Positions 1-37,307 of a DNA stretch of 37,477 nucleotides are shown here, one piece after another. Source of the stretch: a virus. Under the pieces are notes generated by a model. It ran no database searches. It saw nothing but the letters and a program-made list of their open reading frames with translations, and was not told where the DNA came from. Within the stretch, counting starts at the first letter, position 1. Each line of letters begins with the position of its first letter. The position numbers and the translations under genes were made by a program. The stretch is taken from the IMG/VR virus record IMGVR_UViG_3300031232_000426, positions 1 to 37,477 of that record, one strand, 5' to 3'.

Positions 1-304
1 CGACATAGGCCCCCTTGTGGACCAGGGTGCCCTCGATCGGGATCAGCGCGACGCCGTCGACCATATCGAACACCGGCGAGCCGTTGGCGTCGTACCGCCG
101 GCCAGTCCGGTCAGCGATGCGCCCAGCCAAGGGACGCCCGTTCTCGAACGCCACGTGATCGATGGGTTCAGCAGCACGGTCCAGGACGATCCCGCCCTCG
201 ACAATTCGCCCGCCGATGCCAGCGAGCACCGCGTCGAGCTTGCCCGGATGCATCAGGAGCGGCGTGTTGAAAACACGCGCCGCCAGTTCGGGACGAAGGA
301 TCAT
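1..304 (-). CDS. Phage S49-family head maturation protease, N-terminal part (runs off left edge)
   Basis: About 101 codons are visible, reading down from an ATG at 304 that overlaps the portal stop codon as ATGA, so the two genes are translationally coupled. The protein starts MILRPELAARVFNTPLLMHP, and residues 85-101 read VALIPIEGTLVHKGAYV. This resembles the first beta strand and entry loop of SppA/ClpP-fold S49 peptidases that phages of the lambda gpC type encode right after the portal. In that family the enzyme cleaves scaffold and capsid protein during head assembly. The catalytic Ser/Lys would lie outside the window and cannot be checked. Position next to the portal is the main support. 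Confidence 0.8.
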   Translation of the reverse strand, partial: MILRPELAARVFNTPLLMHPGKLDAVLAGIGGRIVEGGIVLDRAAEPIDHVAFENGRPLAGRIADRTGRRYDANGSPVFDMVDGVALIPIEGTLVHKGAYV

Positions 305-1908
305 GCCGGCGTCGCAACCCGTTTGGTCGGCTGATCCTGTTCGGCATCATTGGAGGGGACAGCCTTGCGATCTGTCATCAGATCCGGATCGAGCCCGAGC
401 GCGATCATTTCTTTCCGCTCCCTTGCCCGCTGCTGAATCGTTTCCAGATAATCCTCGCCCTGTTCGGCGCATTCGCGCTCCAGCGTCGAGAGACCCGCCG
501 ACATCCGTTCAGTGGCGGCCGTCGCCTCCTTGTGCGGATCGACCCAGCCACGGCCGGGACCGATCCATCGCGCTGCGCAATAGGCGGCCTTGGCTTCCGC
601 AAACTCCGGCGCGCCCTTCGGCAGTGAAATGGTTCCGCGGTCGATCGCCTCCTCCAGCCAAGCCGCATAGATCGGCGCCATGAACTGCTGGGCAAAATGG
701 TCCTTGCGAGCGGCAAAGCCACGCCAGACTTCGAGCAGCGCCGCCCGCGCCGATGAATAGTTCACCTGGCCCCAGTCCATCGACAGCTGCTCGTAGGTCA
801 TGCCCATGGCGGACGCAATATTGCGCAGGCTCGCACGTTCGAAGGCCTCGAACACGCTGTTGGGGTGATTGGGCTTCGTCAGCGTGACCTTCTCGCCGGG
901 GAACGTGAAAGCGATCTTGGCGCCGCCCATATTGATGGGCGCTGCCTGGTAATAGTCGAGCCGCTGCTGCTGGTAGGCCGACAGTTCCTCACCGCCGCCC
1001 AATGCCGAAGCAAACTGATCGTGGTCGAACGGGCTCTCGACGAAGGCCGCCATGACCGCGTTGAGGACCGCGGCCTGCAGCTCGGCCTCGTCATAGCGCC
1101 CAAGCATCCGCAGCCGCTTGACGATCGGCGCCAGGATCGAGACGCCGCGATACTGGCCGGCGCGCCCGGACTCGAAGGCGTGCACCACCAACCGGCGGCC
1201 GAAGCTGGTCTCTCGGGGAATTCGCTCCCAGGTCCAGAACATCGGATTGAATACGTTCTGGTCGCCGGGATGGGATCGCCGGATGTGATACGCCAAGGGC
1301 TCGCCGTGCTCGCCGATCTCGATGCCCTGACGCCGCCAATAGGTGTCGATACCGTTGTAGGGGTTCGAAAGCCGGTCCGGGTCGATCACCTGGACCGACG
1401 TTGCAAAGCGCCCGCCGCGCGGCAGCCAGAGGATGGCAGCTAGCGCCTCGCCGTCCATCAGGCGGTGACGGAACGCGAGCGCCAGCAATCCTCCCATGCT
1501 CAGTCGGCGCTCCGCGTCGCACCAGCAATCCGGGTCCTCGGCAAAATCCTTCCAGGCCGCCTCGATGTCCGAGGCCAGGTCCGATGCCACATCCGGATCG
1601 ATCTTGAGCGAGCGCGCATTCGGCTTCGACGACAGCCGCCAGCCGGCGCCGATGACGGCGTCAACCTGCCGAGTCACACCGCCGGAGGCCCAGCCATCAT
1701 TGCGGGCGAGATCGTGGATGCGCGCCGTCAGAACCGGTCGGTCCGGCGACAGCGCCGTCTGGGCCGACCACAATGGCGGACGCCATTGCGCCAGGTCGGG
1801 ATCGGTGACCGAGGCGCCGGAATAGCCCGCCGCCAGCATGCGCGCATGCGAGCGGGGCGAGCTTGGCATTTTCACGGGCCTGCCGTCGGGCCCAAGGAGG
1901 CCAGTCAT
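301..1908 (-). CDS. Phage portal protein, lambda family
   Basis: This 535-residue protein matches the usual length of lambda-type (gpB) portal proteins, which form the dodecameric ring at the head vertex for DNA entry and exit. Typical segments are visible: an N-terminal stretch with RARMHDL-like spacing before NDGWASGGVTRQVDAVIGAGW, a region with VIDPDRLSNPYN, and MGMTYEQLSMDW followed by NYSSARAALLEVWRGF. The C-terminus is charged and flexible. It sits between the S49 protease (ATGA overlap) and the gpW-like connector, as expected, but a 1.1-kb plus-strand insertion separates it from the connector. No good Shine-Dalgarno sequence precedes the ATG at 1908, perhaps because the insertion disrupted coupling to the upstream gene. 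Confidence 0.95.
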   Translation of the reverse strand: MTGLLGPDGRPVKMPSSPRSHARMLAAGYSGASVTDPDLAQWRPPLWSAQTALSPDRPVLTARIHDLARNDGWASGGVTRQVDAVIGAGWRLSSKPNARSLKIDPDVASDLASDIEAAWKDFAEDPDCWCDAERRLSMGGLLALAFRHRLMDGEALAAILWLPRGGRFATSVQVIDPDRLSNPYNGIDTYWRRQGIEIGEHGEPLAYHIRRSHPGDQNVFNPMFWTWERIPRETSFGRRLVVHAFESGRAGQYRGVSILAPIVKRLRMLGRYDEAELQAAVLNAVMAAFVESPFDHDQFASALGGGEELSAYQQQRLDYYQAAPINMGGAKIAFTFPGEKVTLTKPNHPNSVFEAFERASLRNIASAMGMTYEQLSMDWGQVNYSSARAALLEVWRGFAARKDHFAQQFMAPIYAAWLEEAIDRGTISLPKGAPEFAEAKAAYCAARWIGPGRGWVDPHKEATAATERMSAGLSTLERECAEQGEDYLETIQQRARERKEMIALGLDPDLMTDRKAVPSNDAEQDQPTKRVATPA

Positions 1909-2194
1909 GCTAGTCGACAGCTTCAGCCGAATTGAACGGGGTCATTTTGACTCTCCACGCCTAGCCGGCACCAAAAAAAAACGCTTGATGAGTGCGGCTT
2001 GCTCGATGTCTGCCATCCCCCGATAGCGACAGGGTATTGCGCTGCGGCACAAATTCGCGATGTGCCAATATCGGAAGCCATCGCTACTAGGCCGCGATGT
2101 AGCATTCCGTTAACTTCATTGCCGCCTCGCAAGCATTTTTCATGAATTGAGTTTAGACTAATCGTGCAAAAGTTATGGCGGATGCCCGCGCAAA

Positions 2195-2512
2195 ATGACT
2201 GATTACGACCTCACGGTTCCGACGAACTTTTCAATTTCCGATGCGCTCGCAAGCTTCGTGCGAGTGGAGGTGATTGCCCGTGGCTACGTTCCAAGCATTA
2301 CGTGGGCGTGGTCAATCCTTGCAGATGGCGAGGAAGAAGGCCGTCCGACGATTGGCGGATTTGAGCCCGACCGCGTACCCGCAGGGTCGTTGCGTACCGT
2401 GAATGGGATCGATTTTGTGTTTGCTCTTACGCCGGCATTGAGACCGCTCTTTGATCGGAAAGTCTTGGATATCGCCGACGGTCGCGGATGCTTTTTAAGA
2501 GAGCATCAATAG
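2195..2512 (+). CDS. Hypothetical protein, first gene of a plus-strand insert in the head module
   Basis: This 105-residue protein is not recognised. It starts MTDYDLTVPTNFSISDALAS and has a mixed alpha/beta composition, with a WAWSILADGEEEGRP segment and no signal peptide, membrane segment or cysteines pairing as a metal site. It lies opposite in strand to the surrounding packaging genes and at the head of a group of three plus-strand genes, the position and orientation of a phage moron. The upstream 286 bases are AT-richer than the phage genes and would hold its promoter, but no clear promoter or strong ribosome binding site is visible. Function unknown. Confidence 0.6.
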   Translation: MTDYDLTVPTNFSISDALASFVRVEVIARGYVPSITWAWSILADGEEEGRPTIGGFEPDRVPAGSLRTVNGIDFVFALTPALRPLFDRKVLDIADGRGCFLREHQ

Positions 2513-2532
2513 CCGCGAAGGGGCCACCTGGC

Positions 2533-2901
2533 ATGTTTGTCCGCTTTGTAGTCGGCACCGAAGGTGAGAACCACCGATGGCTGACGGGTATCATCACCGA
2601 GGCGCGGCTTCTTCGCGACCGGGGGCAACTGGCCTCCTATCAACAAGCCTGCCTTGAGGACGCGTATGCGTGGCTCAACGCTCATCTCCCTTGTCCGCCT
2701 TTCTCGAAGAGCGACTGGGGTCCTGAAGCGGTTTCGTGGTTCAAGGACACGGCCGAACCGTCGATCAAAAAAATGTGGGAGATTGGGGCTCTCCTCAGGG
2801 AGCACGGCATCGCAGTGCGCCTACTCAGATCAAAGAATCCGGGAAAGATTGTCTACGAGGACGATTTCCAGATCGTCGTTCGGGAGTGGAAACGCCTATG
2901 A
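2533..2901 (+). CDS. Hypothetical protein, second gene of the plus-strand insert
   Basis: The frame is open from an ATG at 2488, but the ATG at 2533 (MFVRFVVGTEGENHRWLTG) is preferred. It removes a 25-base overlap with the previous gene and begins at the first beta-strand-like stretch. The product is about 122 residues with a predicted alpha-helical core (ITEARLLRDRGQLASYQQA), an aromatic-rich middle (DAYAWLNAHLPCPPFS) and the C-terminal segment KIVYEDDFQIVVREWKRL. It resembles short conserved bacterial proteins of unknown role, but no function is assigned. It follows the 2195 gene directly and is probably co-transcribed with it. Confidence 0.6.
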   Translation: MFVRFVVGTEGENHRWLTGIITEARLLRDRGQLASYQQACLEDAYAWLNAHLPCPPFSKSDWGPEAVSWFKDTAEPSIKKMWEIGALLREHGIAVRLLRSKNPGKIVYEDDFQIVVREWKRL

Positions 2902-2923
2902 TGCTTGTCGGAAGGAGCCCATC

Positions 2924-3025
2924 ATGCCGAATTGGATAGGGATTTCTATCGGCTACTGGCTCGAACGGGCAGCAGATCAAGCCATGTGCGCTGTGCTCCG
3001 AAACCGGAAGTTTCCGAAGCGCTAG
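2924..3025 (+). CDS. Small ORF (33 residues), third gene of the plus-strand insert
   Basis: An ATG at 2924 is preceded at good spacing by GGAAGGAG (2910-2917), one of the best ribosome binding sites in this area. The peptide reads MPNWIGISIGYWLERAADQA and ends RNRKFPKR. The first 13 residues are hydrophobic and the tail is strongly basic, as in small membrane or phage-regulatory peptides. It starts 22 bases after the preceding gene and stops five bases before the convergent gpW-like gene ends. Support comes from the binding site and position only; no family is recognised. Confidence 0.4.
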   Translation: MPNWIGISIGYWLERAADQAMCAVLRNRKFPKR

Positions 3026-3030
3026 TGCAA

Positions 3031-3255
3031 CTAGAAAATCACCCGGCGCGCAGAGCCCCGGCCGTTTTGACCGAGCTTGCCGCGCAGCTCGGCGATATAG
3101 GCGCGCAGGTCCCCAACGTTCTGCGCGTTCCACTCCATGCTCTTGTCGCCGTGCCGCATCCTCGCGATGCTTCCCTGCACCAGGATCGAATGCAGCGCTG
3201 CCTCCGCTTCGGCAAGCTGCTGCCGCCAAAGCGACAGTTCCGCTGATGTCGCCAT
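3031..3255 (-). CDS. gpW-like head-tail connector protein
   Basis: This 74-residue protein starts MATSAELSLWRQQLAEAEAA and contains VGDLRAYIAELRGKLG near its C-terminus. The length and helix-rich pattern fit phage lambda gpW, a small head-completion protein that binds under the portal after packaging. Its ATG overlaps the terminase large-subunit stop by one base (TAATG), showing coupling. The portal should follow directly, but three plus-strand genes intervene. The call rests on size, helix pattern and position between terminase and portal. Confidence 0.8.
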   Translation of the reverse strand: MATSAELSLWRQQLAEAEAALHSILVQGSIARMRHGDKSMEWNAQNVGDLRAYIAELRGKLGQNGRGSARRVIF

Positions 3256-5288
3256 TATCGCCCCATGTTGAGCCGCGCCATCGCAGCCATGCTGGTCGTT
3301 GCCTTGGGCGCGTCGGTGCCCGGTGTCTCGGGCGACCTGGCTTTCGGTTCAGATCTTGGCCGCTGCGCCGAGTCGGCAATGCGCTGCACCCCGAGCATGT
3401 AAGCGGCGGCATAGGCCAGCGCCTCGCAGTCCAGAAAATGGTTCTCGCGGGAGCGCTGCACCCAGACATAGCCGCCCGATGGCTTCTTCACGCGCCCTTC
3501 CGAGACGATCTGCCGGCAATAAGCCTCCGTCGCGTCCTGCGACAGATGCCAACCGCCCGGCTGATCGTCCGGCCAGCGCACCCGCTCGTGCACCCAGGAC
3601 TTGAAGAAGTCGCTGTCCAGGCGAACGAGATCCAACCCGTATTTGGCAGCCTTGCCCCTGGGTGTCACGTCGATCCGCTTTACCGACAGCGGCTGGTCGC
3701 GATGATCGAATCCCTTCACGGCATAGGCCACCCGGGCGTGACGCCGGCAGAACTCGTAGACCCGATGCTCGGGCACCTCATCCTTCTTGCCCGGGCGAAA
3801 GCCGGAATCGATGAAGGCGCGGCGGATCATCAGATCGCCGATCGGCCGCGCCAGCATCTCCGCGAGATCCATCCACACATCCTGGTGCTCGGTCTCGCCC
3901 CAGAGTTCGTTCTGCTCGATCAGCCAGCTTTCCTGGCGAACGCCAAAGCCCCTGATCACATAGACCAGCCGGTTCTTCTGCACGTCGACGCCCGCGGTCA
4001 GCAGCAGCACACCCGCAGGGATGTCGCGGGACCGGTAAGGCAATCGAAGCCGCGCGACATCAGCCCATTCGGGCGCATCGCCGCCGGCCGGCGCCCATAA
4101 TTCACCGAAGCCGCCATTGATGACGGTCTGCACCTCCTCCTGGTCGCCGGAGTTCAGCGCCTCGACATAGCGGCCGGCGCGCTCGCCGAACGAGACGAAC
4201 GGCGATGCCAGACCGGACACCCAGAAACTCACGGTCGTGCTCTCGGGCGGGTCGCCGATGACGCTGCCAACTTCGATACGTTGGCCTGGCGCCACGTAGA
4301 CGCCGCGAGCGTTCATCTCGAACTTGTGCTTCTCCTCGATCAAACCATTGCAGTTGGGACATTGCAGGTGCGCGAGCCGGCGCGCCTCGATCGGCGTAGC
4401 ATCCCGCTCGATCCGCTCCTTGCCGCCCTTGGGCGTGATGTCGACCTTGGGAATAACCAGGCAGTCGAACCGCGGAACGAAGTAATCGCCGCAGTGCGGG
4501 CACGGCCAGGCCCAGTGATACCGAGTCCCGCGCTGCCACAGCTTCCAGATCGGACTGTCGAGCCCCGCCATGTCGTCCTTGTCGACGACCTTCCAGAATT
4601 CAAGGCCGGTCCGGTCGTCGGTCTCGATCTCGACGGCTCCGACGGTCGGGGTCGAGGTCACGCCGAGGGTGAAGTCGGCATGGGTATCGCCGCGGACTTC
4701 CAGCAAGCGGACTGGATCGCCTTCGCCCTTGACGTTCTTGGACATCCCATCCCGTTCGTCGACAATGGCAAGCCCGGCGGGATCGGACTTCAGCTGGTTG
4801 GCCGAGCCCGCCCAGGCCAGACGCACCGACACGCCCGAGACAATCTTGCGGGTCTTCTTGTTCTTCTTGCCGCGCGCCAGCTTGGCAGCCAGGCTCGTCG
4901 ACCGGTTCAGCGCATCGTCGAACCGCGGCTCAAACTGGTCGGTGACGAAGTTCCGGTCGGGGCCGGCATAGATGATCGGGACCGGGCGCTGATCGAGCCG
5001 CGACAGGATCACGTCGATGACGCTTTCCGTCTTGCCGCTCTGTCCTCCCGTGACGAGCACCACCGTGTTGTAGAGCGGGTCGTCGAAGGCTCGCACGAAC
5101 GGGATCACATACGGCGTGACCGCAGGGTCCTTCGGTCCCGGCCGCCCAGACGACAGCGGGAACACACGGTTGGTGCGCGCCCACTCGTCAGCCGGCACCT
5201 TCTTCGTCGGGCGCAGGATCCTGATCGCCCGATCGATAAGAGTCGCGAAGTTTTTCGATGCGATCGGCCACTTCGGCAAGCGCGTCAT
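3255..5288 (-). CDS. Phage terminase large subunit, GpA family
   Basis: This 677-residue ATPase-nuclease packages phage DNA into the prohead. The Walker A-type motif GGQSGKT is at residues 81-87, preceded by the family's typical ADEWARTNRVFPLSSG region. Two Cys pairs, CPHC and CPNC, lie in the middle of the protein and resemble the zinc-binding insert seen in GpA-type terminases. The second half holds the nuclease region (VDVQKNRLVYVIRGFG, then RRAFIDSG). The start at 5288 overlaps the small subunit by 101 bases but has AGAGG just upstream, so it is kept. The overlap recalls the adjacent Nu1-A genes of lambda. Confidence 0.96.
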   Translation of the reverse strand: MTRLPKWPIASKNFATLIDRAIRILRPTKKVPADEWARTNRVFPLSSGRPGPKDPAVTPYVIPFVRAFDDPLYNTVVLVTGGQSGKTESVIDVILSRLDQRPVPIIYAGPDRNFVTDQFEPRFDDALNRSTSLAAKLARGKKNKKTRKIVSGVSVRLAWAGSANQLKSDPAGLAIVDERDGMSKNVKGEGDPVRLLEVRGDTHADFTLGVTSTPTVGAVEIETDDRTGLEFWKVVDKDDMAGLDSPIWKLWQRGTRYHWAWPCPHCGDYFVPRFDCLVIPKVDITPKGGKERIERDATPIEARRLAHLQCPNCNGLIEEKHKFEMNARGVYVAPGQRIEVGSVIGDPPESTTVSFWVSGLASPFVSFGERAGRYVEALNSGDQEEVQTVINGGFGELWAPAGGDAPEWADVARLRLPYRSRDIPAGVLLLTAGVDVQKNRLVYVIRGFGVRQESWLIEQNELWGETEHQDVWMDLAEMLARPIGDLMIRRAFIDSGFRPGKKDEVPEHRVYEFCRRHARVAYAVKGFDHRDQPLSVKRIDVTPRGKAAKYGLDLVRLDSDFFKSWVHERVRWPDDQPGGWHLSQDATEAYCRQIVSEGRVKKPSGGYVWVQRSRENHFLDCEALAYAAAYMLGVQRIADSAQRPRSEPKARSPETPGTDAPKATTSMAAMARLNMGR

Positions 5289-6146: not shown

Positions 6147-6884
6147 ATGCCCAAGCTTTCCGACGCCCAACTCGTGGTCCTCTCCGCCGCCTCTCAGCGC
6201 GACGACCGTTCCGTCCTTCCCCTGACGCTCAAGCACAAGGGCGCCGCCGCCGACAAGGTGCTCAACAGCTTGCTGCGCAGTTCGCTGATCGAAGAATGCC
6301 CCGCCGGACTCAACGATGAAGTCTGGCGACAGGCAGACGACGGCACCCGCCTGGCTCTGCGCGCAACACCGGCGGCGTTCGAGGCGCTTGGCATCGCGAC
6401 CGAGACAGCCGCGCCAAACGAACCGCCAGCGCGAGATAACGACGCCGCGCCGGACGCCGTCGTGACGACCGACGCCAAGCCCACCAAGAAGGCTGGCGCC
6501 CACGCCAAGAAGCAGGGACCGACGAAGGCCAAATCCCAAGGCAAGTCGAAGTCCAAACCGGCGCCCCAGGCCAAGACGAAGGTCAAGTCCAAGGGCAAGC
6601 CTACGCCGAAGCCCGCGGCCAAGGCCGCAGCAAAGGCACAGAAGGCCAAACCCGCTGCCTCCAAGAAGCCGGGCGCAACCCGCGACAACAGCAAGCAGGC
6701 CCAGCTGATCAAGATGCTCGAACGCTCCCAAGGAGCAAGCCTCGACGAGATCGTCAAGGCGTTGGAGTGGCAAGCGCACACCGTGCGCGGCGCTATCGCC
6801 GGAGCGCTGAAGAAGAAGCTCGGCCTCGACGTCCAGTCCGAGAAGGACGAGCGACGCGGGCGGGTCTATCGCATCGCCGCCTGA
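6147..6884 (+). CDS. DUF3489 domain protein with Lys/Ala-rich linker
   Basis: This 245-residue protein has three parts. Residues 1-100 form a helical winged-helix-like region (MPKLSDAQLVVLSAASQRDD, then KVLNSLLRSSLIEE). Residues about 105-178 are a histone-H1-like stretch rich in Lys, Ala and Pro. Residues about 180-245 form the DUF3489 region (QLIKMLERSQGASLDEIVKA and HTVRGAIAGALKKKLG). The C-terminus looks like a winged-helix DNA-binding fold, and the basic linker suggests nonspecific DNA contact, so a DNA-binding role is inferred. AAGGAG precedes the ATG. Its 3' end overlaps the convergent ParB-methylase gene by 19 bases. Confidence 0.9.
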   Translation: MPKLSDAQLVVLSAASQRDDRSVLPLTLKHKGAAADKVLNSLLRSSLIEECPAGLNDEVWRQADDGTRLALRATPAAFEALGIATETAAPNEPPARDNDAAPDAVVTTDAKPTKKAGAHAKKQGPTKAKSQGKSKSKPAPQAKTKVKSKGKPTPKPAAKAAAKAQKAKPAASKKPGATRDNSKQAQLIKMLERSQGASLDEIVKALEWQAHTVRGAIAGALKKKLGLDVQSEKDERRGRVYRIAA

Positions 6885-8143
6885 GGCATCTCGAAAGGCT
6901 GACCGGTGGCGGCGTGGACAGCGCGGCCACCGGTTATATCTTGCCAGCGCTGCACGATCACATCGACGTATTTTGGGTCCAGTTCGATCAGCCGCGCCCG
7001 CCGGCCGGCGCGCTCCGCCGCGATCATGGTGGTTCCGGAACCGCCGAACAAGTCAATCACGACATCCCGGCTCTTGGACGAATTGCGAATGGCGCGCTCG
7101 ACCAGCGCCACCGGCTTCATCGTCGGGTGCAGGTCGTTCTTGGCCGGCTTGTCGACGAACCAGACGTCGCCCTGGTCGCGCGCGCCGCACCAGAAGTGCT
7201 CGGAACCCTCCTTCCAGCCGTAGAGGATCGGCTCGTATTGGCGCTGATAATCCGAGCGCCCGAGCGTGAAGGTGTTCTTGGCCCAGATAACAAAGGTCGA
7301 CACCCGACCTCCCGCGTCCCTGAAAGCCTTCTGCAGCTTTCCGATCTCGTAGGTCGACATGCAGATGTAGACAGCACCCTTGGTGACCGCGAGGATGTTG
7401 ACCGCGGTGTCATAGAGCAATTGGCCAAACGCCTCGCCGAGCGCGTCATTGAGGATCGGCCGGCCCTTCGGGCCTCGTTTCGCCCGAAACCTGTCCTGGG
7501 CCGATTTGCCGTAGTCCACGTTGTAGGGCGGGTCAGTGAAGGCCATATCGGCCAGTTCGCCATCCAGCACCTTCTCGACATCGGAGAGCACTGTGGAATC
7601 GCCGCACAGCACCCGGTGATCGCCGCAAATCCAGATATCGCCGGGCCGGCTGATCGGGTCGTTCGGCGGCTCCGGCACCTCGTCGGGATCGCCGTCGACG
7701 TCAGCATCGATCTGCAATAGGCCGTCGATCTCGTCCTGATCAAAGCCGGTCAGCGTCAGGTCAAAACCGACCGCGCGAAGGTCGCCGAGTTCGAGGCGCA
7801 AGAGTTCGTCGTTCCACTCGCTTGCCTCCGTCAGCCGGTTGTCGGCGATGGCGTAGGCCTGGCACTGCGCATCGGACCAGCCGCTGGCGACAATGGTCGG
7901 CACCTCGGTCAGGCCTTCGAGCCTCGCGGCCTCAAGCCGGCCGTGGCCTGCGATCAGCATCCCGTTTTCGCGCACCAGCACGGGCATGGTCCAGCCGAAT
8001 TCGCGGAGCGAGGCCCGGAGCTGTTCGATCTGCTCCTCGCCGTGAATGCGCGCATTGCGCGGGTTCGCCGAGAGCCGATCGATGGCCCACAGTTCGACCT
8101 TGGCCGCCGGCCAGGCGACCTGAGATTTGACGGGTGAATTCAT
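6866..8143 (-). CDS. ParB-like domain fused to DNA methyltransferase (N6-adenine or N4-cytosine type)
   Basis: This 425-residue fusion has a ParB/sulfiredoxin-like N-terminus (residues about 17-115, with the motif AGHGRLEAARL at 65-75). A beta-class amino-methyltransferase follows: catalytic motif DPPY at 204-207 and, later, the S-adenosylmethionine site DLFGGSGTTMIAAERAG. The DPPY-before-FxGxG order places it in the beta class; DPPY more often goes with adenine methylation. Such phage enzymes usually act as orphan methylases that protect phage DNA or affect regulation, and no restriction partner is adjacent. The gene starts opposite an AT-rich leader containing AAACCCAA repeats. The target sequence cannot be predicted. 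Confidence 0.93.
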   Translation of the reverse strand: MNSPVKSQVAWPAAKVELWAIDRLSANPRNARIHGEEQIEQLRASLREFGWTMPVLVRENGMLIAGHGRLEAARLEGLTEVPTIVASGWSDAQCQAYAIADNRLTEASEWNDELLRLELGDLRAVGFDLTLTGFDQDEIDGLLQIDADVDGDPDEVPEPPNDPISRPGDIWICGDHRVLCGDSTVLSDVEKVLDGELADMAFTDPPYNVDYGKSAQDRFRAKRGPKGRPILNDALGEAFGQLLYDTAVNILAVTKGAVYICMSTYEIGKLQKAFRDAGGRVSTFVIWAKNTFTLGRSDYQRQYEPILYGWKEGSEHFWCGARDQGDVWFVDKPAKNDLHPTMKPVALVERAIRNSSKSRDVVIDLFGGSGTTMIAAERAGRRARLIELDPKYVDVIVQRWQDITGGRAVHAATGQPFEMPQAAMR

Positions 8144-20829: not shown

Positions 20830-22389
20830 TTACTTCTCGCGAAGTCCACCCTGGCGCAGACCCTCGGCAATACGAGCTCGCTGCGCTAGACAAGTCGGAT
20901 TGTCCGTTGGCGAACTGACGTGGAATTGGGCGATGCTGAAATTAGGCGTGAGGATGAGCCCCGCCTGTATAGAAGCCCGTGCTTCCTCGACCTGTCCGAG
21001 ATGAGACAACGCGGCGGCCAGATAGAAATGGACAAACGGCGCAATGTTCCGGTTTGTCTCGATGGAGCGCTTGAACCAGTGTACAGCCGCCTCATCGGCG
21101 CCAAGATATGACTGCGCTACGCCCGTTGCATTCATCCAGGAAAAGGCCCTGTTGTCGCGCGGAGAGAGCCGGAATGCTTCCATGACGCAGGCTTCAGTTT
21201 CCTTGGCACGACCCAGATAGCACTTGCCAAGCCCGATCCACGCGTAAGCGGCAGCCAAATTCCGATCCAGAGCTAAAGACCGCTCACATTCGGCAATCCC
21301 CTGAACGGCACGCTTGGTGAAAATCTGGACGACGCCCATTAGGCAATGGGCCATCGCGTAATTTGGCGCCTGGGCAAGTATCTTGGCCAATGACGCTTCG
21401 ACAGCCCGCAGAGGCGCCGTCCGGTCGATCAGCATGGACGTAGCTCGCGTGGTATCGACGAATGCCATGCCGACCATGGCGTCAAGGTTCGTTGGATCTC
21501 GGTCGAGAGCTTGTTCGAAGAAATGTCGCGCCTGCGCCAGGTTCTCAGGGGCCGATCCGCGGTTCACGCTCGCCATGCCCTGGAAATACAGATCCATCGA
21601 ATCCGCGTTAGGTGCCCGCGCCGCGCGCCGTGCCTCCACCGCGACCAGTTCAGTCCCCAGCTGATTGGCAAGACGGCCGCCGATCTCGTCTTGCATATCG
21701 AAGAGGTCGGCGATCGGTTTGTCGAAGCGTTCGGCCCAGAGGTGGTTGCCGGTTTCGGCCTCGATGAGCTGGACGTTGATGCGCATCCGACTCGCACCTC
21801 GCTGAACCGACCCCTCCAGGATGTAGCGAGCGCCGAGTTCGAAGCCGATCTGCTTCAGATCGACACGCTTCCCCTTGAATGTGAAGGCGGTGTTACGACC
21901 TATTACGTGGATCCCGGCCATCCGCGATAAATCCGTGGTCAGGCTCTCGGTCACGCCGTCGACGAAATAGTCCTGCTCAGGTTCAGGGCTCAGATTGGCG
22001 AACGGCAGGACCAAGAGCGACGTCTTGCCAAGGGCCGGACTTGGCAGGCTGCTCATGCTAGCGGCTGCCGTCAGTCCGGGCGCTTCGCGCACGGTGGCAA
22101 CGAAGCGGACACCTTTGCGAGGGAAAGTCTTGATGAGGCGCTGCTCGTCTCCGGAATCGCCTACCGCCTTCCGCGCCGCATTGAGGCGCGTGGTCAGCGC
22201 TGCGTCCGAGACGGCGCGGCCTTGCCAGATGGCGTCGATCAGGTCGTTCTTGCTGACAACGCGCTCCCGATTTCCGATCAGATAGTCAAGCAGGTCGAAC
22301 ACCTGTGGGGCGATCGCGACCACATCCATGCCGCGACGCAACTCGCGCTGGTCGGTATCGAAGGAAAAATTCTCAAAGAAATAGCGCAA
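20830..22389 (-). CDS. Winged-helix transcription regulator with TolB-like and TPR regions
   Basis: The start is taken as TTG at 22389, giving LRYFFENFSFDTDQRELRRG, the usual opening of this family, with GGGGA upstream. The frame further up (to 22530) would overlap the divergent promoter. The 519-residue protein has an OmpR/PhoB-type winged helix (residues 1-100), then a TolB-N-like/adenylate-cyclase-associated domain (LLVLPFANLSPEPEQDYFVD; about 125-265), then TPR repeats to the end. No membrane segment is visible, unlike CadC. It probably senses a signal through the TPR region and regulates the divergent transport/methyltransferase unit. Confidence 0.88.
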   Translation of the reverse strand: MRYFFENFSFDTDQRELRRGMDVVAIAPQVFDLLDYLIGNRERVVSKNDLIDAIWQGRAVSDAALTTRLNAARKAVGDSGDEQRLIKTFPRKGVRFVATVREAPGLTAAASMSSLPSPALGKTSLLVLPFANLSPEPEQDYFVDGVTESLTTDLSRMAGIHVIGRNTAFTFKGKRVDLKQIGFELGARYILEGSVQRGASRMRINVQLIEAETGNHLWAERFDKPIADLFDMQDEIGGRLANQLGTELVAVEARRAARAPNADSMDLYFQGMASVNRGSAPENLAQARHFFEQALDRDPTNLDAMVGMAFVDTTRATSMLIDRTAPLRAVEASLAKILAQAPNYAMAHCLMGVVQIFTKRAVQGIAECERSLALDRNLAAAYAWIGLGKCYLGRAKETEACVMEAFRLSPRDNRAFSWMNATGVAQSYLGADEAAVHWFKRSIETNRNIAPFVHFYLAAALSHLGQVEEARASIQAGLILTPNFSIAQFHVSSPTDNPTCLAQRARIAEGLRQGGLREK

Positions 22390-22551
22390 ACCACTTCCCC
22401 GGGACTGTGGTCGATCGTCATACCTGGGCCGGCGCAAGAATAAGCTGCCGGTAAGGAAAAAGTAAGCCTGCCACCAAGCCCGGCCATCCCTGACGTGGTA
22501 CATCCGGAGGTGGAACCCGCGCGGATACAAAATGGATCAGGGAGACAGGTG

Positions 22552-23532
22552 ATGATTACGCGTCGTAACCTATTGACCGTGTCGGCGGCCGGTGCCGCGA
22601 TCTCAGCCGCGTGGCTCGTGCCGGAAGTTCTCGCACAGCCGCTTGCGAGAACGGTGCACATTTTGACCGGCTTCACGCCTGGACTGCAGGACGCGCTGGC
22701 GCGGCTCGTTGCGGGTCGAATGAACGACTATGCCCAAACGATCGTGGTGGAGAGCCGGCCCGGCGCGGCCGGTCGCATCGCGGTGGAGGCGGTGCAAACG
22801 GCAGACGCCGACGGATCGACGATGCTGTTCGCTCCGCTCGGTTTCATGATGCTGTTTCCGCACGTCTACAAGACGCTGAGATACCAGCCGCGGGACTTCA
22901 CGCCCGTGTCGACCGTGGCCTCGACCCCGACTCTGCTGACGGTCGGTCCGAAAGTACCTGCGGACGTAACGACCGTCGCGGAGTTTGTCGCTTGGTGCCG
23001 GGCGAACCCGAAGTTCGCGACGTATGGGACGGCAGGCGCCGGAACGACGCTGCATTTCCTCGGCGCGACGCTCGGACACACTGCGGGGTTCGATTTTCTT
23101 CACGTGCCCTATCAGGGCAACGGCGCAATTCAGGATTTGGTCAAGGGCGAGATCGCATCGGCCATCATGCCGGTCGGTAGCTCGCTCGGACTGATCCAGT
23201 CCGGTGATCTTCGTGCGCTCGCGACCACCGGCCCGAACCGCTGCCCGTTTGTTCCCGCCGTGCCGACAGTGCGGGAGGCGGGATATCCGGCGCTTGAGGA
23301 CTTAACATGGTATGGATTCTTCGTTCCGGCGAAGACGCCGCTGCCGGTCGTTGAGAAGCTCAATACGTCGATCCAGGCAGCCATGCGTGCTGATGAGGTC
23401 AAGTCAGGCATGGCAAAGCTTGGTGTCGAGCCCGACGCGATTGCGATGGGTGACTTTGCCAGGCTGATCGCATCCGAGTCCGAGCGCTGGAAGGGGATCG
23501 TGCAGGCAACCGGGTTTGTCCCGACTGATTGA
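22552..23532 (+). CDS. Bug-family tripartite tricarboxylate transporter substrate-binding protein
   Basis: The start is the ATG at 22552, with GGAGACAGGTG just upstream. The 326-residue protein has an N-terminal export signal with twin arginines (TRRNLL) and a hydrophobic stretch ending at VLAQPLA. The mature part shows Bug/TctC features: VVESRPGAAGRIAVEAV, DGSTMLFAPLGF, FDFLHVPYQGNGAIQDLVKG and PFVPAVPTVREAGYP. These periplasmic proteins bind carboxylates or aromatic acids. No TctA/TctB membrane genes are nearby, so it is an orphan, as Bug proteins often are. The ligand is not deducible. Confidence 0.95.
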   Translation: MITRRNLLTVSAAGAAISAAWLVPEVLAQPLARTVHILTGFTPGLQDALARLVAGRMNDYAQTIVVESRPGAAGRIAVEAVQTADADGSTMLFAPLGFMMLFPHVYKTLRYQPRDFTPVSTVASTPTLLTVGPKVPADVTTVAEFVAWCRANPKFATYGTAGAGTTLHFLGATLGHTAGFDFLHVPYQGNGAIQDLVKGEIASAIMPVGSSLGLIQSGDLRALATTGPNRCPFVPAVPTVREAGYPALEDLTWYGFFVPAKTPLPVVEKLNTSIQAAMRADEVKSGMAKLGVEPDAIAMGDFARLIASESERWKGIVQATGFVPTD

Positions 23533-23562: not shown

Positions 23563-24579
23563 ATGAGCCGGCAAATATCCGTCCACGATCTTGTGCAGTC
23601 ACATCGCATCACCGCCGTCATCTATGCGGCGGCGAAACTCGATCTCGCCGAGGCCATCGGCGTCGATTCGAAATCAGCAGCCGAACTCGCGAGGCTCGTA
23701 GACGCCGACGAAAGCGCTCTCCGCAGACTGCTCGTTGGCCTGACGACACTTGGCCTCTGCAGGCAGACCGACGGGGACCGGTTTGCAATCACCGATCTCG
23801 GCCGGCAGCTCGACGGGACCGCCGACCCATCCTTCAAGGATTGGATTCTCTTTGAGGGCGAGATGCTCGTACCGTCCTGGAGCGGCCTGGTCGATTCTGT
23901 TCGCACCGGCAAGACCGCGACCCAGCTGCGGGGCGACGGAGATGATCGCTATACCGCCACCGGTAGTGCGCCGGAATGGACCCGTCGATTCAACGCCGCG
24001 ATGGTCAGCCTCACCCGGACGGTCGTTCCACAGATCGTTGCAGCCTACGACTTCGCAGCTACGCGCGTGGTGATGGATCTAGGTGGCGGCATCGGCGAGT
24101 TGCTCGGCGGCGTGCTGCTCCACAACCCGCATCTTGAGGGCATCGCCTTCGACCTTCCACGCTGCGAACCGGAGGCGCATGCGCATTTTGATCGGCTTGG
24201 CATCGCCGATCGCTGCCGGTTCGTCGCTGGCAGTTTTTTTGAAGCAGTTCCGGGCGGCGCCGACACGATCCTGCTGAAGAGCATCCTTCACAATTGGAAA
24301 GACGATCGTTGCGAGGTCATTCTGCGCAATTGCAGGCGTGCGCTGCCGTCCGGCGGAACGTTGATCATGATCGAGCGTATCATGCCGGAGCTTGCCACGG
24401 CCGAGACGGAGGCCCGCTCCTGCGCCATGAGCGACCTAAACATGCTGCGGGGACCTGGCGGCCGCGAGCGGACGGAAGCCGAGTATCGCAGTCTGGCCAC
24501 CTTCGCCGGCTTCGCTTTCGTCGGAACGAGCGGTATCGGCACGTTCAGCTTGGTCAAATTCAGAAAAGTCGGCAATTGA
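23563..24579 (+). CDS. SAM-dependent O-methyltransferase (acetylserotonin/hydroxyneurosporene type)
   Basis: This 338-residue protein has an N-terminal winged-helix dimerisation domain (residues about 8-95) and a C-terminal methyltransferase domain. The S-adenosylmethionine motif is VVMDLGGGIGELLGG (about 169-183), and the catalytic histidine is His243 in HNWKDDRCEVIL, the typical HxWxDxxC pattern. GGAGGG lies upstream of the ATG, 30 bases after the binding-protein gene, so the two are probably one transcript. It would methylate a hydroxyl group on a small molecule; the substrate is unknown. Confidence 0.93.
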   Translation: MSRQISVHDLVQSHRITAVIYAAAKLDLAEAIGVDSKSAAELARLVDADESALRRLLVGLTTLGLCRQTDGDRFAITDLGRQLDGTADPSFKDWILFEGEMLVPSWSGLVDSVRTGKTATQLRGDGDDRYTATGSAPEWTRRFNAAMVSLTRTVVPQIVAAYDFAATRVVMDLGGGIGELLGGVLLHNPHLEGIAFDLPRCEPEAHAHFDRLGIADRCRFVAGSFFEAVPGGADTILLKSILHNWKDDRCEVILRNCRRALPSGGTLIMIERIMPELATAETEARSCAMSDLNMLRGPGGRERTEAEYRSLATFAGFAFVGTSGIGTFSLVKFRKVGN

Positions 24580-26408: not shown

Positions 26409-26693
26409 TCAGCGTGAGGCGCGGCGATAGAGTGCAAAGACCTCTGAAGCCCTGCTTTGCAAATCGGGAGGCAGCCGACGGGCGGCGGCGAAGACCTCGT
26501 CCTCCGGAATGTCCAGGATCTGAGCGAGGCGCTCGATCAACTCGTCACGCGGCACGCGTTCCCGATCGCGCTCGATCCGCGAGAGGTACGGCACCGAGAT
26601 CTCCAGGGCGGCCGCGACGTCCAGCAGGGTCAGGCCGCGTTGGTTGCGGCGCTCTCGAATGAATGTGCCAAAGCTTGACGATTCCCCAGACAC
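26409..26693 (-). CDS. XRE-family HTH repressor
   Basis: The start is GTG at 26693, with AAAGGAG eight bases upstream; another GTG at 26735 lacks such a site. The 94-residue protein contains a classical helix-turn-helix (RGLTLLDVAAALEISVPYLS), followed by RIERDRERVPRDELIERLAQ and a short C-terminal helix. It is probably the element's repressor, paired with the ImmA/IrrE protease encoded nine bases downstream. It faces the divergent recombinase unit across 309 bases, so it may control both promoters. Confidence 0.93.
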   Translation of the reverse strand: MSGESSSFGTFIRERRNQRGLTLLDVAAALEISVPYLSRIERDRERVPRDELIERLAQILDIPEDEVFAAARRLPPDLQSRASEVFALYRRASR

Positions 26694-27002
26694 GCCTCTT
26701 GCTCCTTTATGCAAACCTGCAACTTCCGATCGCACCTGTGTGAGAGGAAGGTCGCAAAATACCGCCGCAAAGTTCTTATTTTGTTCTCGGGTGTCTTGTC
26801 GAGTCGAATCTTGCCGGCAGCGGCGCTGAATTGATCATCAGTGGCCCTTCGCGCGGCTGCGACGGCCTACCATTGTCGCCGCATCCTTTCGACAAGGCGT
26901 TGAAACTGCTTACGAACGCGTAAGAGACCGTGTCATCCTAGGGTCTGATCCCATGAAGACACCGACTTCGGCTTGATGAGCAGCGCACTTCGTCCCGATG
27001 CC
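26694..27002. other. Divergent control region between repressor and recombinase unit
   Basis: This 309-base region separates the minus-strand XRE/ImmA genes from the plus-strand recombinase genes and must hold both promoters. An inverted repeat CTTACG-AACG-CGTAAG (26909-26924) is visible, and ACCTG-type motifs occur at 26716 and 26734. No gene is credible here. Operator function of these motifs is inference. Confidence 0.5.
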
Positions 27003-27176
27003 ATGTCCACCTCCGAACGGCTCGGAGAGATCGCCGAGATCCTGGTCGCCGGGCTGACACGGCTCCAGGCCCGGAAGTCCAGTCCTTTATCTCGCAACTT
27101 CGGAGAGAGTTCACTCGACTGTCCCGGCCACCAGAGCAGTCATGCCGACCGGAATTCTCTGGAGGGCGACTCATGA
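27003..27176 (+). CDS. Small protein leading the recombinase unit
   Basis: The ATG at 27003 (MSTSERLGEIAEILVAGLTR) is preferred to an upstream ATG at 26973, because the preferred start opens directly with the helical segment. The 57-residue protein continues ARKSSPLSRNFGESSLDC and ends NSLEGDS. Its stop overlaps the DUF2924 ATG as ATGA, showing coupling. Short proteins with an 'ILxxGLxRLxARKSS' pattern are found, to my recollection, next to DUF2924 genes in rhizobial elements. No function is known. Confidence 0.7.
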   Translation: MSTSERLGEIAEILVAGLTRLQARKSSPLSRNFGESSLDCPGHQSSHADRNSLEGDS

Positions 27177-27622
27177 AGGACAACGTACTGGCTCGGATCG
27201 CGGCGCTGAAAACTCTACCGGCACCGCAACTCAAGCAGCAATGGCGCGAGCTGTTCGCCGCCGAGCCGCCGCCCTACAACCGGCGTTTCCTGGAAAGCCG
27301 GCTGGCCTATCGCATTCAGGAACTGGCCTATGGCGGGTTGAAGAAGGAGACCGTCGAGCGGTTGCGGGCGCTGGCCAAGCAGTATGGCAACGGCAAGCCT
27401 GCCGCCAAACCGAAAGCCCGCAACGATCGGCTGCCGGTCACGGGCACCCGGCTGATCCGCGAATGGCAGGGCATCGAGCACTGCGTCACCGTGCGCGGCG
27501 ATCACTTCGAATATCAGGGACGGCCCTACAAATCGCTGTCGGCAATTGCCCGCGAGATCACCGGCTCGCGCTGGAATGGCTGGGTCTTCTTCGGCCTGAA
27601 GAACAGCCGAGGCGCGGCATGA
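27173..27622 (+). CDS. DUF2924 domain protein
   Basis: This 149-residue protein has GGAGG upstream. It contains LPAPQLKQQWRELFAAEPPP near its start, the family signature for DUF2924, and later TRLIREWQGIEHCVTVRGDH and YKSLSAIAREITGSRWNGWV. It is basic in its middle (AAKPKARNDRLP). DUF2924 genes regularly precede large serine recombinases in alphaproteobacterial elements, and it overlaps the recombinase start (ATGA), so a role as a recombination directionality or DNA-binding helper is inferred, not shown. Confidence 0.92.
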   Translation: MKDNVLARIAALKTLPAPQLKQQWRELFAAEPPPYNRRFLESRLAYRIQELAYGGLKKETVERLRALAKQYGNGKPAAKPKARNDRLPVTGTRLIREWQGIEHCVTVRGDHFEYQGRPYKSLSAIAREITGSRWNGWVFFGLKNSRGAA

Positions 27623-29022
27623 CTCGATCCCCGCAACCGGACCCGGCATCGCGCAGCGCAAGAAGCCAACCCGTCCGCGACAAACGCCGCTCGGCCAGCG
27701 CGGGCGCGGTCCGCGCGCCGGTCCGGAAAATCCGCTGTGCGGTCTACACCCGCAAATCGACCGAGGAAGGGTTGGAGATGGAGTTCAACTCCCTCGACGC
27801 CCAGCGCGAGGCCTGCGAGGCCTATGTCGCGAGCCAGCGCGCGGAGGGCTGGCTGTTGCTGTCCGACCGCTATGACGACGGCGGCTTCTCTGGAGGAACG
27901 CTGGAGCGGCCTGCGCTGAAACGGCTGCTGACCGATATCGAGGCTGGAGGCGTCGATGTTGTCGTGGTCTACAAGATCGACCGGCTGTCGCGGTCCCTGA
28001 TGGACTTCTCCCGGCTGGTCGAGGTGTTCGACCGCCACAACGTGACGTTCGTTTCCATCACCCAGTCGTTCAACACGACGACCTCGATGGGTCGGTTGAC
28101 CCTCAACGTGCTGCTATCGTTCGCCCAGTTCGAGCGCGAGGTCATCGGCGAGCGCATCCGGGACAAGTTCGCCGCCTCCCGCCGCAAGGGCATGTGGATG
28201 GGCGGCTGGGCGCCGCTCGGGTATGAGGTCCGTGACCGCAAGCTGGTCGTTAACGACGCTGACGCCAAACTGGTCCGGTCGATCTTCCAGCGCTTCCTGA
28301 AAACAGGTTCGACGACGATCCTCGCCCGGCAGTTCGAACAGGAGAACGTTCGCAACAAATACGGCAAGCTGGTTGATAAGGGGATACTCTACAAGCTGCT
28401 GCGCAACCCGGTCTATATCGGCGAAGCGGTCCACAAGGGCGTCAGCTACCCCGGTGAGCACGCAGCCATCCTCGATCGCAAGATTTGGGACAAGGTGCAG
28501 GCGCACCTGCAGATCGATCGTCGCAAGCGATCCGCAGCGGTGCGAGGCCAAACGCCAGCGCTTCTGAAGGGGCTGATCTACGGTCCTGACGGCGCCGCCA
28601 TGTCGCCCTCCCATACGCGCCGGAAGGGAATGCTCTACCGCTATTACGTGAGCCAGACGATCTTGAAGCTGGCTCGGACCGACATGCCAGCGGGACGGGT
28701 CCCGGCCGCGGAGGTCGAGACCATCGTCGTCGATCAGGTCCGCATCCTGCTGCGCTCTCCGGAAATCATCGTCAGGACGTGGCGACAGGCGCGGGAGACG
28801 TTGCCGGAATTGACCGAGGCCGAGGTGCGCACGGCACTGGTCGAATTCGAGCCGCTCTGGAACGAGCTGTTTCCGGCGGAGCAATCGCGCATCGTCCGGC
28901 TTCTGGTCGAGCGCGTCGATGTCGCTGCCGACGGCATCGAGGTCAAACTGCAAATCGACGGCATCGGCAAGCTCGTCGCCGAACTCACCGCCAAATCCGG
29001 CGGGCAACAGGACGCCGCATGA
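27619..29022 (+). CDS. Large serine recombinase without zinc-ribbon cysteines
   Basis: The start is the ATG at 27619, coupled to DUF2924; the longer frame upstream overlaps that gene and is not used. The 467-residue protein has the resolvase catalytic domain with Ser47 in CAVYTRKSTEEG, followed by SLDAQREAC, DRLSRSLMDFSRLVE and the conserved FAQFEREVIGERIRDKFAAS. A recombinase domain follows (MWMGGWAPLGYEVRDRKL). Where the zinc beta-ribbon should lie (LKGLIYGPDGAAMSPSHTRR) no cysteines occur, so the zinc ligand set is missing. It would integrate or excise the element; the attachment sites are not identified. Confidence 0.93.
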   Translation: MTRSPQPDPASRSARSQPVRDKRRSASAGAVRAPVRKIRCAVYTRKSTEEGLEMEFNSLDAQREACEAYVASQRAEGWLLLSDRYDDGGFSGGTLERPALKRLLTDIEAGGVDVVVVYKIDRLSRSLMDFSRLVEVFDRHNVTFVSITQSFNTTTSMGRLTLNVLLSFAQFEREVIGERIRDKFAASRRKGMWMGGWAPLGYEVRDRKLVVNDADAKLVRSIFQRFLKTGSTTILARQFEQENVRNKYGKLVDKGILYKLLRNPVYIGEAVHKGVSYPGEHAAILDRKIWDKVQAHLQIDRRKRSAAVRGQTPALLKGLIYGPDGAAMSPSHTRRKGMLYRYYVSQTILKLARTDMPAGRVPAAEVETIVVDQVRILLRSPEIIVRTWRQARETLPELTEAEVRTALVEFEPLWNELFPAEQSRIVRLLVERVDVAADGIEVKLQIDGIGKLVAELTAKSGGQQDAA

Positions 29023-29447
29023 CCACCGCGATCCCATCGCCCGTGATCAGCGTCAGCAAGGATGGGCGAACCGTCACCATTCGTGTGCCCGTCAGGTTTC
29101 GCCAGCGGGCCGGCCGGAAGCAGATCCTGACACCCCCGGGTTCGGTCCCGTGGTCGCCCGCGCCGCGCGTCGACCATTCCTTGCTCAAGGCCGTCGTCCG
29201 CGCCCACCGCTGGCGCGAAATGCTGGAGACTGGCGAATACGCATCCGCGGCAGAACTCGCCAAGGCCGAGAAGGTCAACGACTCCTACGTCAGCCGGATT
29301 CTTCGACTGACCCTGCTCGCCCCCCACATCATCGAGGCGATCGTGGATGGCCGGCAGCCTCCCACTATGCAGGTGGATGATCTGCTCAAACCACTGCCGG
29401 CGGAGTGGGAATTACAAGGCCCGTCACTATCGGAGAGACCACGGTAG
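29019..29447 (+). CDS. HTH protein coupled to the serine recombinase
   Basis: The ATG at 29019 overlaps the recombinase stop (ATGA); the frame is open earlier but only over the recombinase gene. The 142-residue protein has a beta-rich N-terminus (SPVISVSKDGRTVTIRVPVR) and a C-terminal helix-turn-helix AELAKAEKVNDSYVSRILRL followed by LAPHIIEAIVDGRQPPTM. That pattern resembles the KorB/ParB-type HTH. As the last gene of the unit, it probably binds DNA near the recombinase sites or regulates the unit. Function is inferred from domain and position. Confidence 0.85.
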   Translation: MTTAIPSPVISVSKDGRTVTIRVPVRFRQRAGRKQILTPPGSVPWSPAPRVDHSLLKAVVRAHRWREMLETGEYASAAELAKAEKVNDSYVSRILRLTLLAPHIIEAIVDGRQPPTMQVDDLLKPLPAEWELQGPSLSERPR

Positions 29448-30178
29448 TTTTGGCATCAGGCGGACCACGTAGTACGCAAAATTAGCTTTGCAAGCGCTTT
29501 AGCCAAAGTGTACCCGCGGAGCGCTCGGCGTCGTAGAACATGTGGGTGCGATCCTTCTGCCTCCAACTCCCAACCAAATGTAATAGAACTTCGTGGGGAC
29601 GAACAACGGTGATGGCTTCAGCTACGACTAGGGAGTTATACCTCTAGACACATCAACACATCATTCGGGTGTTAACAGGAACGTACTTGTGTCCTCCGAT
29701 CGAACTTCATTTAAATCACTTCGCAGGTATCGTCACGTCGAGCCCAGCAATCACCTCGTCCGGAATGCGTCACGCCCGTATGGCCATGGCTCGTGCCACC
29801 GGTATGTCGACAATTATAGCGCTAAGATTGATCCTGCCTTCAAGTGTCTACCAATCAGGCAATGGATCATCCTGCTCGCTCGGATCGAAGCCGGTCCTGC
29901 GGATCGCGAGGCGATCTGCGCTAACCCAACGACCACCGCGCGACGTGACCTTCGGGAGTGACTTTTCGGAAGTCCGCCCACCCAAAGGACTTTTCTGGAC
30001 GCAGGTGGCTCCGCAGCAGAGGATCTTAAGCATGCAGCGGGCGTGAGCTGGAGCACTCTGCACACCCTTCTCGGCTAACATTGGCGATCAGCCCAAAGAT
30101 TAGTTGGCAACGAGACGGTCTCGACATATTGGTCGAGCGGTAGCACCATATCACCTGATGGTTGCAAAGGGGGCCTTG
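29448..30178. other. AT-richer gap between recombinase unit and NACHT-glycosyltransferase gene
   Basis: No convincing gene is seen in these 731 bases. Several short frames occur on both strands without good start sites or recognisable products. The stretch at about 29985-30078 reads in one frame as a short HTH-like tail (SAAEDLKHAAGVSWSTLHTL) ending in a stop but lacking a start, so it could be a gene remnant. The last part would hold the promoter of the large gene and perhaps an insertion junction. Confidence 0.5.
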
Positions 30179-35113: not shown

Positions 35114-35658
35114 AAGCTGGGAGGCGGCCCAAGCTCCACCGCGCCCTCTAGCGGCCGAGGTCGCATGCTACTTTACGCGAAGTCAGTAATTAATTTGCTG
35201 TTCTGTTCGCGCAGCGGCTTCCCGGGCCCGTAGTCCCAACCAAAATAGCAGGTGTTGCCATAGCTCCTATTGACGTCAAGAGGTGCGTAGACAGACTGTG
35301 TATCGCTTGAATTGGCGGGAGAAATGCAGGCTTCTCGGCGGTATCGAACGAAGTAGTGGGGGTATACCCTTGTCAGATCGTCGCTCGCCACCCCCCAAGC
35401 GATTCAACCGCTCGTATGTTTCAATGAGGGGTCCGGCAGCAGTTGCATTGAGCCGAAGCGAGCGGCGATTTAAAAAAAGACCCGGGAACGAAGTGCGTAA
35501 GCAAATATATGCGCGACCTGGCGTTTAACGCCCAGCTCAGGCCAAGCCAAGCAGCGGTAGAAAGATGCCGATTAGACGCATGATTGCCAGCCCATCCGGT
35601 ATCATCAAGTTCGGTTCGCGCGATTAATCTACGATCGGCTCTCTCGCGGACAACCTCC
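35114..35658. other. Gap downstream of the NACHT-glycosyltransferase gene
   Basis: Apart from the doubtful small frame at 35173-35391, nothing convincing is seen. No rho-independent terminator for the large gene is obvious. A run of A (35472-35478) and several AT-rich patches suggest foreign or decayed DNA. Confidence 0.45.
35173..35391 (-). CDS. Doubtful small ORF or gene remnant
   Basis: This 72-residue frame has a GTG start and a stop codon 15 bases further upstream, so it could be the 3' end of a longer gene whose front is lost. The sequence looks protein-like rather than random (YGNTCYFGWDYGPGKPLREQ) and has two cysteines. No family is recognised and no good ribosome binding site is present. 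It is convergent with the NACHT-glycosyltransferase gene. Confidence 0.3.
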   Translation of the reverse strand: MASDDLTRVYPHYFVRYRREACISPANSSDTQSVYAPLDVNRSYGNTCYFGWDYGPGKPLREQNSKLITDFA

Positions 35659-36384: not shown

Positions 36385-36431
36385 TGCGGCTACCGCAGTA
36401 TCAGCCGTCTAATCTCGCAGAGAAGTATATT

Positions 36432-36848
36432 TTACGAACGCTGTATCCGCGCCGCGTCGTCGTCATTAAGCGCCTGTTCAAGAACGCGCATCACGTAAGC
36501 GTTCACTGAAGCGTTTTTCTTCTCAGCAGCGCTTTCAATCCGACGCGCCAAGTTGATCGGCAGACGAATCGTTAGCCGACGCTCCGCACTGCCGCCTTCG
36601 ATAACATCAAAGTATTTTTCGACAAGATGGTTTGCGTGTTTTTCTAGAAGCTTTTGCGCCTCTTCGTCGCTTACAGGTCCGAACTCCAGAACATCCTCGC
36701 CGTCGTGGTTCACGACGATAGTGAAGAACGCGCCCGCGCGAGTTTGATACAGGCCCCACCAACCACTCGATTGGAAATGGCCACTTCCCACGAAAATTTC
36801 GGTCGCTGTTTCAGTATTGTAGGTTTGGCCGTCGATAATCCGTTTCAT
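36432..36848 (-). CDS. Ribbon-helix-helix protein with N-terminal sensor-like domain
   Basis: The start is the ATG at 36848 (MKRIIDGQTYNTETATEIF); a start further upstream would lie inside the palindrome. The 138-residue protein opens with a beta-rich domain (to about residue 75; MKRIIDGxTYNTETAT is a pattern seen in short prophage and TA-type proteins). It ends with a ribbon-helix-helix DNA-binding domain (RLTIRLPINLARRIESAAEK, then NAYVMRVLEQAL). It resembles antitoxin-type autoregulators, but no toxin gene is adjacent. The perfect palindrome 11 bases upstream of the start is the likely operator. Confidence 0.8.
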   Translation of the reverse strand: MKRIIDGQTYNTETATEIFVGSGHFQSSGWWGLYQTRAGAFFTIVVNHDGEDVLEFGPVSDEEAQKLLEKHANHLVEKYFDVIEGGSAERRLTIRLPINLARRIESAAEKKNASVNAYVMRVLEQALNDDDAARIQRS

Positions 36849-36859
36849 GGCTGCCTCCA

Positions 36860-37280: not shown

Positions 37281-37307
37281 AAAAAAGCCCGCAAATACTG
37301 GGCTTTT
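37281..37307 (-). terminator. Rho-independent terminator of tRNA-Ser
   Basis: On the minus strand an eight-pair stem (AAAAGCCC / GGGCTTTT; arms 37300-37307 and 37283-37290, nine-base loop) is followed by a T run. It lies 43 bases after the tRNA 3' end, as expected for its terminator. Confidence 0.85.

Follow-up and report, generated by a model that had tools for sequence, protein, structure and literature searches.

A probable moron-type cargo cassette at the gpW–portal junction of a temperate lambda-like phage

The window analyzed here, the whole stretch of 37,477 bases of a virus record, carries a minus-strand lambda-type head module in its left part. The module includes TerL (3255–5288, minus strand), a gpW-like head-tail connector gene (3031–3255, minus strand; PF02831, E 1.7e-10), and a portal gene of the lambda family (301–1908, minus strand; PF05136, E 9.7e-106). 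Since a CI-like HTH gene (26412–26735) and a serine recombinase (27142–29019) are found in the right part, the phage is regarded as temperate. The GC content falls from approximately 63% in the phage part to 53% over positions 29300–37477. This region of lower GC content, in which a tRNA-Ser is located (37351–37440), is probably flanking host DNA.

The gpW-like and portal genes are the flanks of an insert of 1,122 bp, which spans the distance between the portal ATG and the gpW stop (1909–3030). It holds three plus-strand ORFs that run antisense to the late module: ORF1 (2195–2512, 105 aa), ORF2 (2533–2901, 122 aa), and ORF3 (2924–3025, 33 aa). A preliminary description of this DNA had reported three inserted plus-strand genes at 2195–3025. 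The insertion between the portal and gpW genes and the three antisense ORFs were confirmed, but the insert proper has the wider extent given above, and the status of a gene is firm only for ORF2, uncertain for ORF1, and doubtful for ORF3. The compositional difference claimed in the same description was borne out: the GC content of the insert (0.551) is lower than that of all 2,593 other equal-sized segments in 1–29300 (mean 0.628, minimum 0.578). The composition of the insert is foreign to the phage, and its GC content (55%) is closer to that of 29300–37477 (53%) than to that of the phage part.

Relatives of the portal gene were drawn from viral contigs (25 loci), from genomes of the Bradyrhizobium agreste genus (9 of 265), and from isolate phages. 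Both gpW and portal were matched in 22 loci, four of which represent two insert-bearing contigs, each seen twice (L001/L002 and L003/L106). In all of the remaining 18 scorable loci, which lie outside this phage type, the whole insert is missing and the extrapolated spacer between gpW and portal measures 2–51 nt. Eleven of the 18 (L004–L012, L019, and L023), some of them near-identical phages, have a spacer of exactly 2 nt, in which case the portal start is overlapped by the gpW stop. Loci without a gpW match were left unscored (9 of the 25 portal loci from viral contigs, 6 of the 9 from genus genomes, and 3 of the 4 isolate phages). According to their annotation, the four isolate phages have the same gene order, with an overlap of gpW and portal in three of them and a 65-nt gap in Serratia phage BZS1.

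The premise that portal and gpW are normally adjacent therefore holds, as the two genes overlap or lie within approximately 51 nt of each other in every scorable locus outside the phage type. Because they touch or nearly touch in these relatives, the 1.1-kb gap in the window is derived. Judged from the empty sites, an ancestral insertion evidently split an overlapping gpW–portal pair. The absence of the insert from related phages furthermore suggests that it may be dispensable for the phage life cycle. The comparison with related phages that had been proposed in the preliminary description also ruled out that the inserted genes are conserved structural genes of this site: among the 25 viral-contig loci, within their limited flanks, ORF1 and ORF2 were found only in the contig identical to the window (L002, which equals L001). 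Two loci (L013 and L014) run, at approximately position 5000, from TerL residues 1–522 straight into portal from residue 147 and are missing gpW, which is either a deletion or an assembly join.

The nearest relative, L003, with a portal 97% and a gpW 93% identical to those of the window, carries a different insert of 783 bp at the same gpW–portal site. The L003-type insert is also present in L107, a contig from a differently numbered data set that matches L003 at 99.97% identity over 3,121 bp, and the insert region of the window recurs without any difference in a second contig, L001. Only two fillings are known for the site, each seen twice (window and L001; L003 and L107). In a local comparison of the two inserts, similarity was confined to the two ends, and the interiors were unrelated. 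The portal-side shared end (1909–2067, 159 bp) is 86% identical to L003 over 160 columns, and the gpW-side shared end (2952–3030, 79 bp) is 91% identical. Synonymous sites differ between the window and L003 by 35% in portal and 45% in gpW (dN/dS 0.04 and 0.06, respectively), whereas the insert ends differ by only 9–14%; the ends are therefore either constrained or swapped as blocks. The interior of the L003 insert holds a 127-aa gene with an open frame, antisense to the late genes. Within the Bradyrhizobium genus, this gene has relatives that are 62% and 48% identical to it (matches in 6 of 265 genomes), and no further viral copy was found in the viral sequence scan. The two fillings demonstrate what is evidently a moron-type site, with cargo exchanged between kept ends. 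A two-copy 16-nt repeat (at 1926 and 2926, 81% alike) was noted and dropped, as it is not located at the shared borders.

The 52 bp beside the portal ATG agree with L003 at 48 of 50 aligned bases. An 11-codon mini-ORF on the minus strand (1910–1945), identical in L003, ends one base before the portal ATG, and its start is overlapped by the stop of a 24-codon ORF (1942–2016, minus strand). The latter is distinguished from its L003 counterpart by two small indels that amount to one codon net, and its end is kept in frame. The mini-ORF may substitute for the lost translational coupling of gpW and portal, and the portal-side shared end presumably holds expression signals. In a consensus scan of 1850–3300 that was limited to the sigma-70 type, neither strand yielded a sigma-70-like promoter, and the plus strand had no terminator-like site. 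The scan counts were 0 and 1, compared to 0.7 and 1.3 in shuffles, and the one minus-strand terminator-like site is within chance. Neither a promoter nor a terminator was recognized when the L003 insert was scanned. For structured RNA, no Rfam match was obtained in 1850–3300 up to an E of 1, and three folded segments were no stabler than shuffles (z −0.89, −0.88, and +1.30).

ORF2 encodes 122 aa, or 137 aa if translation begins at the ATG at 2488 further upstream. Its product is 89, 87, 80, and 79% identical to proteins of B. diversitatis, B. agreste, B. jicamae, and B. lablabi, respectively, and 83% identical, over a part, to a protein of Bradyrhizobium sp. 141. The DNA match to the Bradyrhizobium copies is confined to 2513–2897. 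Versus the copies of the first four species, dN/dS values of 0.07–0.24 were determined, although part of this signal arose in the bacterial lineages. At E ≤ 0.001, matches were present in 37 of 265 genus genomes: six have copies of 79–89% identity (one partial and one split), one has a short 81% stretch, and 30 have distant relatives (≤35%). The closest relatives stand alone on Bradyrhizobium contigs, and no matches to ORF1, ORF3, gpW, or portal were found near these copies. Further distant relatives are located on 14 plasmid records (Vibrio 6, Streptomyces 6, Nonomuraea 1, and Arthrobacter 1). The relatives are alike over most of their length and have WFK-like and GxxxYxDxxQ positions in common.

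No other viral copy of ORF2 was detected by sequence in 50,697 phage records or in the IMG/VR scans, which were built on short peptide patterns and may miss distant copies. Phage scans with two distant members of the family, from Vibrio and Nonomuraea, gave no match in one case and a weak partial one (E 0.2) in the other. ORF2 had no family match in PADLOC, PHROG, NCBIfam, or Pfam, and the wider family members had no match above the cut-off in Pfam or NCBIfam (below it, NCBIfam E 0.056 and 0.08, Pfam E 0.19). By sequence, no solved structure was matched. A fold search with the predicted model (pLDDT 77) gave weak results (best PDB E 0.35), and one predicted viral structure resembles the model weakly by fold (E 1.2e-3, TMq 0.58). 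Because of the DNA match and the spread among bacteria, ORF2 is assigned a Bradyrhizobium-like origin; it is evidently a real gene of cellular origin, caught by the phage from Bradyrhizobium-like bacterial DNA.

The cargo candidate ORF1 is less clear. When the insert was simulated 5,000 times with a first-order Markov model, a same-strand ATG ORF reached 105 aa or more in 1,209 runs and 122 aa or more in 682; the length of an ORF alone is therefore no proof of a gene. ORF1 had no family match in PADLOC, PHROG, NCBIfam, or Pfam, and it was found in none of the 265 Bradyrhizobium-genus genomes. At E up to 0.1, 15 of 297 genomes of the order were matched, full-length and in a similar-sized frame only in genome G486. 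With a two-row profile, 3 of 337 genomes of the class were matched, all partially. The same profile also matched importins, at E 0.095 and above; these hits were rejected as probably due to chance. Plasmids gave two Shinella matches (E 0.7–0.8), one of them within an oxidoreductase-like frame, and phages gave one partial match (E 0.8). Predicted alone, ORF1 folds poorly (pLDDT 35).

The look-alike in G486 (L102:10024–10365, minus strand, 113 aa) is located between TerL and portal genes. The surrounding cluster, which we take to be gene-transfer-agent-like, contains a capsid gene and, some kilobases off, a TIGR02218 tail gene. ORF1 and the G486 protein are 28% identical (E 2e-7 as a single comparison). 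Their score of 75 is higher than those of all 20,000 shuffles, but apparently unrelated hits of the same scans reach 80 and 76. The chance that any of 16 order-wide ORF1 matches lands in the TerL–portal spacer was estimated at approximately 0.003. The G486 protein itself was matched in 2 of 150 genomes of the order, partially, and in 4 of the 12 genomes of its own family including G486, where the other three matches are partial; none was found in phages, plasmids, or viral contigs. Only colinearity and position point to a possible homology with ORF1.

ORF3 has a good ribosome binding site and is preceded by GGAAGGAG. The ribosome binding site noted in the preliminary description thus stands, but the stress laid there on the 33-residue peptide does not. 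In L003, the start and the first 11 codons of ORF3 are missing, and the 22 shared codons show five replacement differences and no silent one. The only Pfam match is at chance level (E 0.15, 12.2 bits versus a cut-off of 27), and no match was found in PADLOC, PHROG, or NCBIfam. The gpW-side end is conserved as DNA, not evidently as the ORF3 peptide, and it is doubtful that ORF3 is a gene.

Location amid lytic genes, on the opposite strand, has been described as a characteristic of moron loci (PMC7067206), and some of the morons carried by prophages are known to counter other phages (PMC9122126). The insert has in common with the morons of lambdoid and related prophages that extra genes lie between neighbours, antisense, with a foreign composition, and variable in close relatives. 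It differs from them by the lack of a recognized promoter or terminator, by the gpW–portal site, and by the retention of its ends across a change of cargo. Both morons and sites with variable cargo have been described before, and the insert probably belongs with the prophage morons. The empty site in relatives, the antisense ORFs, the foreign composition, and the different cargo in the nearest relative all agree with the earlier designation as a moron-like insertion. In the literature searched, which was represented mostly by abstract openings, no report of a gpW–portal cargo site with kept ends was found. The unnamed ORF2 family (Bradyrhizobium, Vibrio, Streptomyces, and others) resides on bacterial contigs and plasmids, and the copy in the window is the only viral one found by sequence.

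The insert as a whole is, in our view, likely to be a cargo cassette of the moron type that a temperate lambda-like phage carries among its head genes. As the comparisons show, an insertion entered the overlapping gpW–portal pair, and its ends were kept while the genes between them were exchanged. ORF1 and ORF2 are the filling in the window and the different 127-aa gene is the filling in L003, both antisense to the late genes. ORF2 was captured from Bradyrhizobium-like DNA, and the L003 cargo likewise has relatives in the Bradyrhizobium genus. The portal-side shared end would provide the antisense cargo with expression signals and portal with a new start region. The cargo may be transcribed in the lysogen, where it would alter the host instead of building virions. 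Protection against other phages is conceivable as the host effect of the cargo, but we regard it as the less likely outcome by a clear measure.

A narrower form of this explanation, in which the prophage would express its cargo to block phages or exclude superinfection in the manner of Tab of phage JBD26, appears rather unlikely. The tab gene of this Pseudomonas phage is a studied antisense defence moron; it runs counter to the late genes, sits between the two terminase genes, and is driven by a promoter of its own (PMC10884400). The likeness is one of layout, an antisense accessory gene within the packaging and head run, and it is complemented by the cargo difference between near relatives. 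However, Tab is located between the small and the large terminase gene, whereas the insert lies between gpW and portal, and Tab is accompanied on the late strand by anti-Tab, which overlaps the gene for the small terminase (PMC10884400). A partner of this kind is not apparent in the insert, where the sense-strand ORFs are tiny. Likewise, none of the PADLOC-DB 2.0.0 families matched ORF1, ORF2, or ORF3 at E up to 5, the closest relatives of ORF2 stand alone on bacterial contigs, and the consensus scan recognized no promoter. The role in superinfection exclusion or anti-defence suggested in the preliminary description thus received no positive support, neither from PADLOC, PHROG, and NCBIfam (no matches) nor from the solitary ORF2 relatives in Bradyrhizobium.

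That the insert is passive or decaying DNA, an illegitimate insertion without function that is being lost, would fit the broken ORF3 in L003, the missing promoter match, and an ORF1 that could be a chance ORF. We regard it as improbable given that ORF2 is intact with its low dN/dS, albeit partly a signal of bacterial lineages, that the shared ends have diverged less than synonymous sites, and that the L003 cargo gene is open too. More improbable still is a reading that gives ORF1 a minor role in head assembly or packaging, as a gene native to the TerL–portal junction, and leaves ORF2 as the sole cargo. It draws on the position of the sole full-length look-alike, between TerL and portal and in a cluster with capsid and TIGR02218 tail genes. 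Unrelated hits of the same scans score just as well as this look-alike or better, its orientation in G486 is that of the late genes whereas ORF1 opposes them in the window, and a full copy exists in only one of the 12 genomes of the G486 family. Moreover, ORF1 is missing from L003 and from the phages with an empty site.

For the preferred moron-type cassette, a more far-reaching but clearly less likely version can be put forward, namely that the gpW–portal junction is a dedicated exchange platform. Its conserved ends would give the cargo a promoter on one strand and portal a mini-ORF-coupled start on the other. If so, the site could exchange its content for bacterial genes from unnamed families, of which ORF2 is an example, without harm to head assembly. 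The empty site, the two fillings, and the same ends form a clean set in which cargo exchange can be watched in one phage lineage. In addition, the unnamed ORF2 family, which spans Proteobacteria and Actinomycetota, is tied to prophage carriage, which offers a handle on its function.

Further genes were noted in the window. The phage part has four more of bacterial type, which encode a beta-lactamase-family protein (PF00144; 9292–10866, minus strand), a Trans_reg_C/TPR protein (20830–22530, minus strand), a TctC receptor (22495–23532, plus strand), and an O-methyltransferase (23563–24579, plus strand) and may be other cargo. A gene in which ParB N-terminal and N6/N4 DNA methylase domains are fused (6869–8143, minus strand) adjoins the head module. 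Beside the recombinase end, a frame of 1,669 aa (30104–35113, plus strand) matches in its C-terminal part GT4-conflict (PF20706, E 2.4e-105), which is named after glycosyltransferases of conflict systems.
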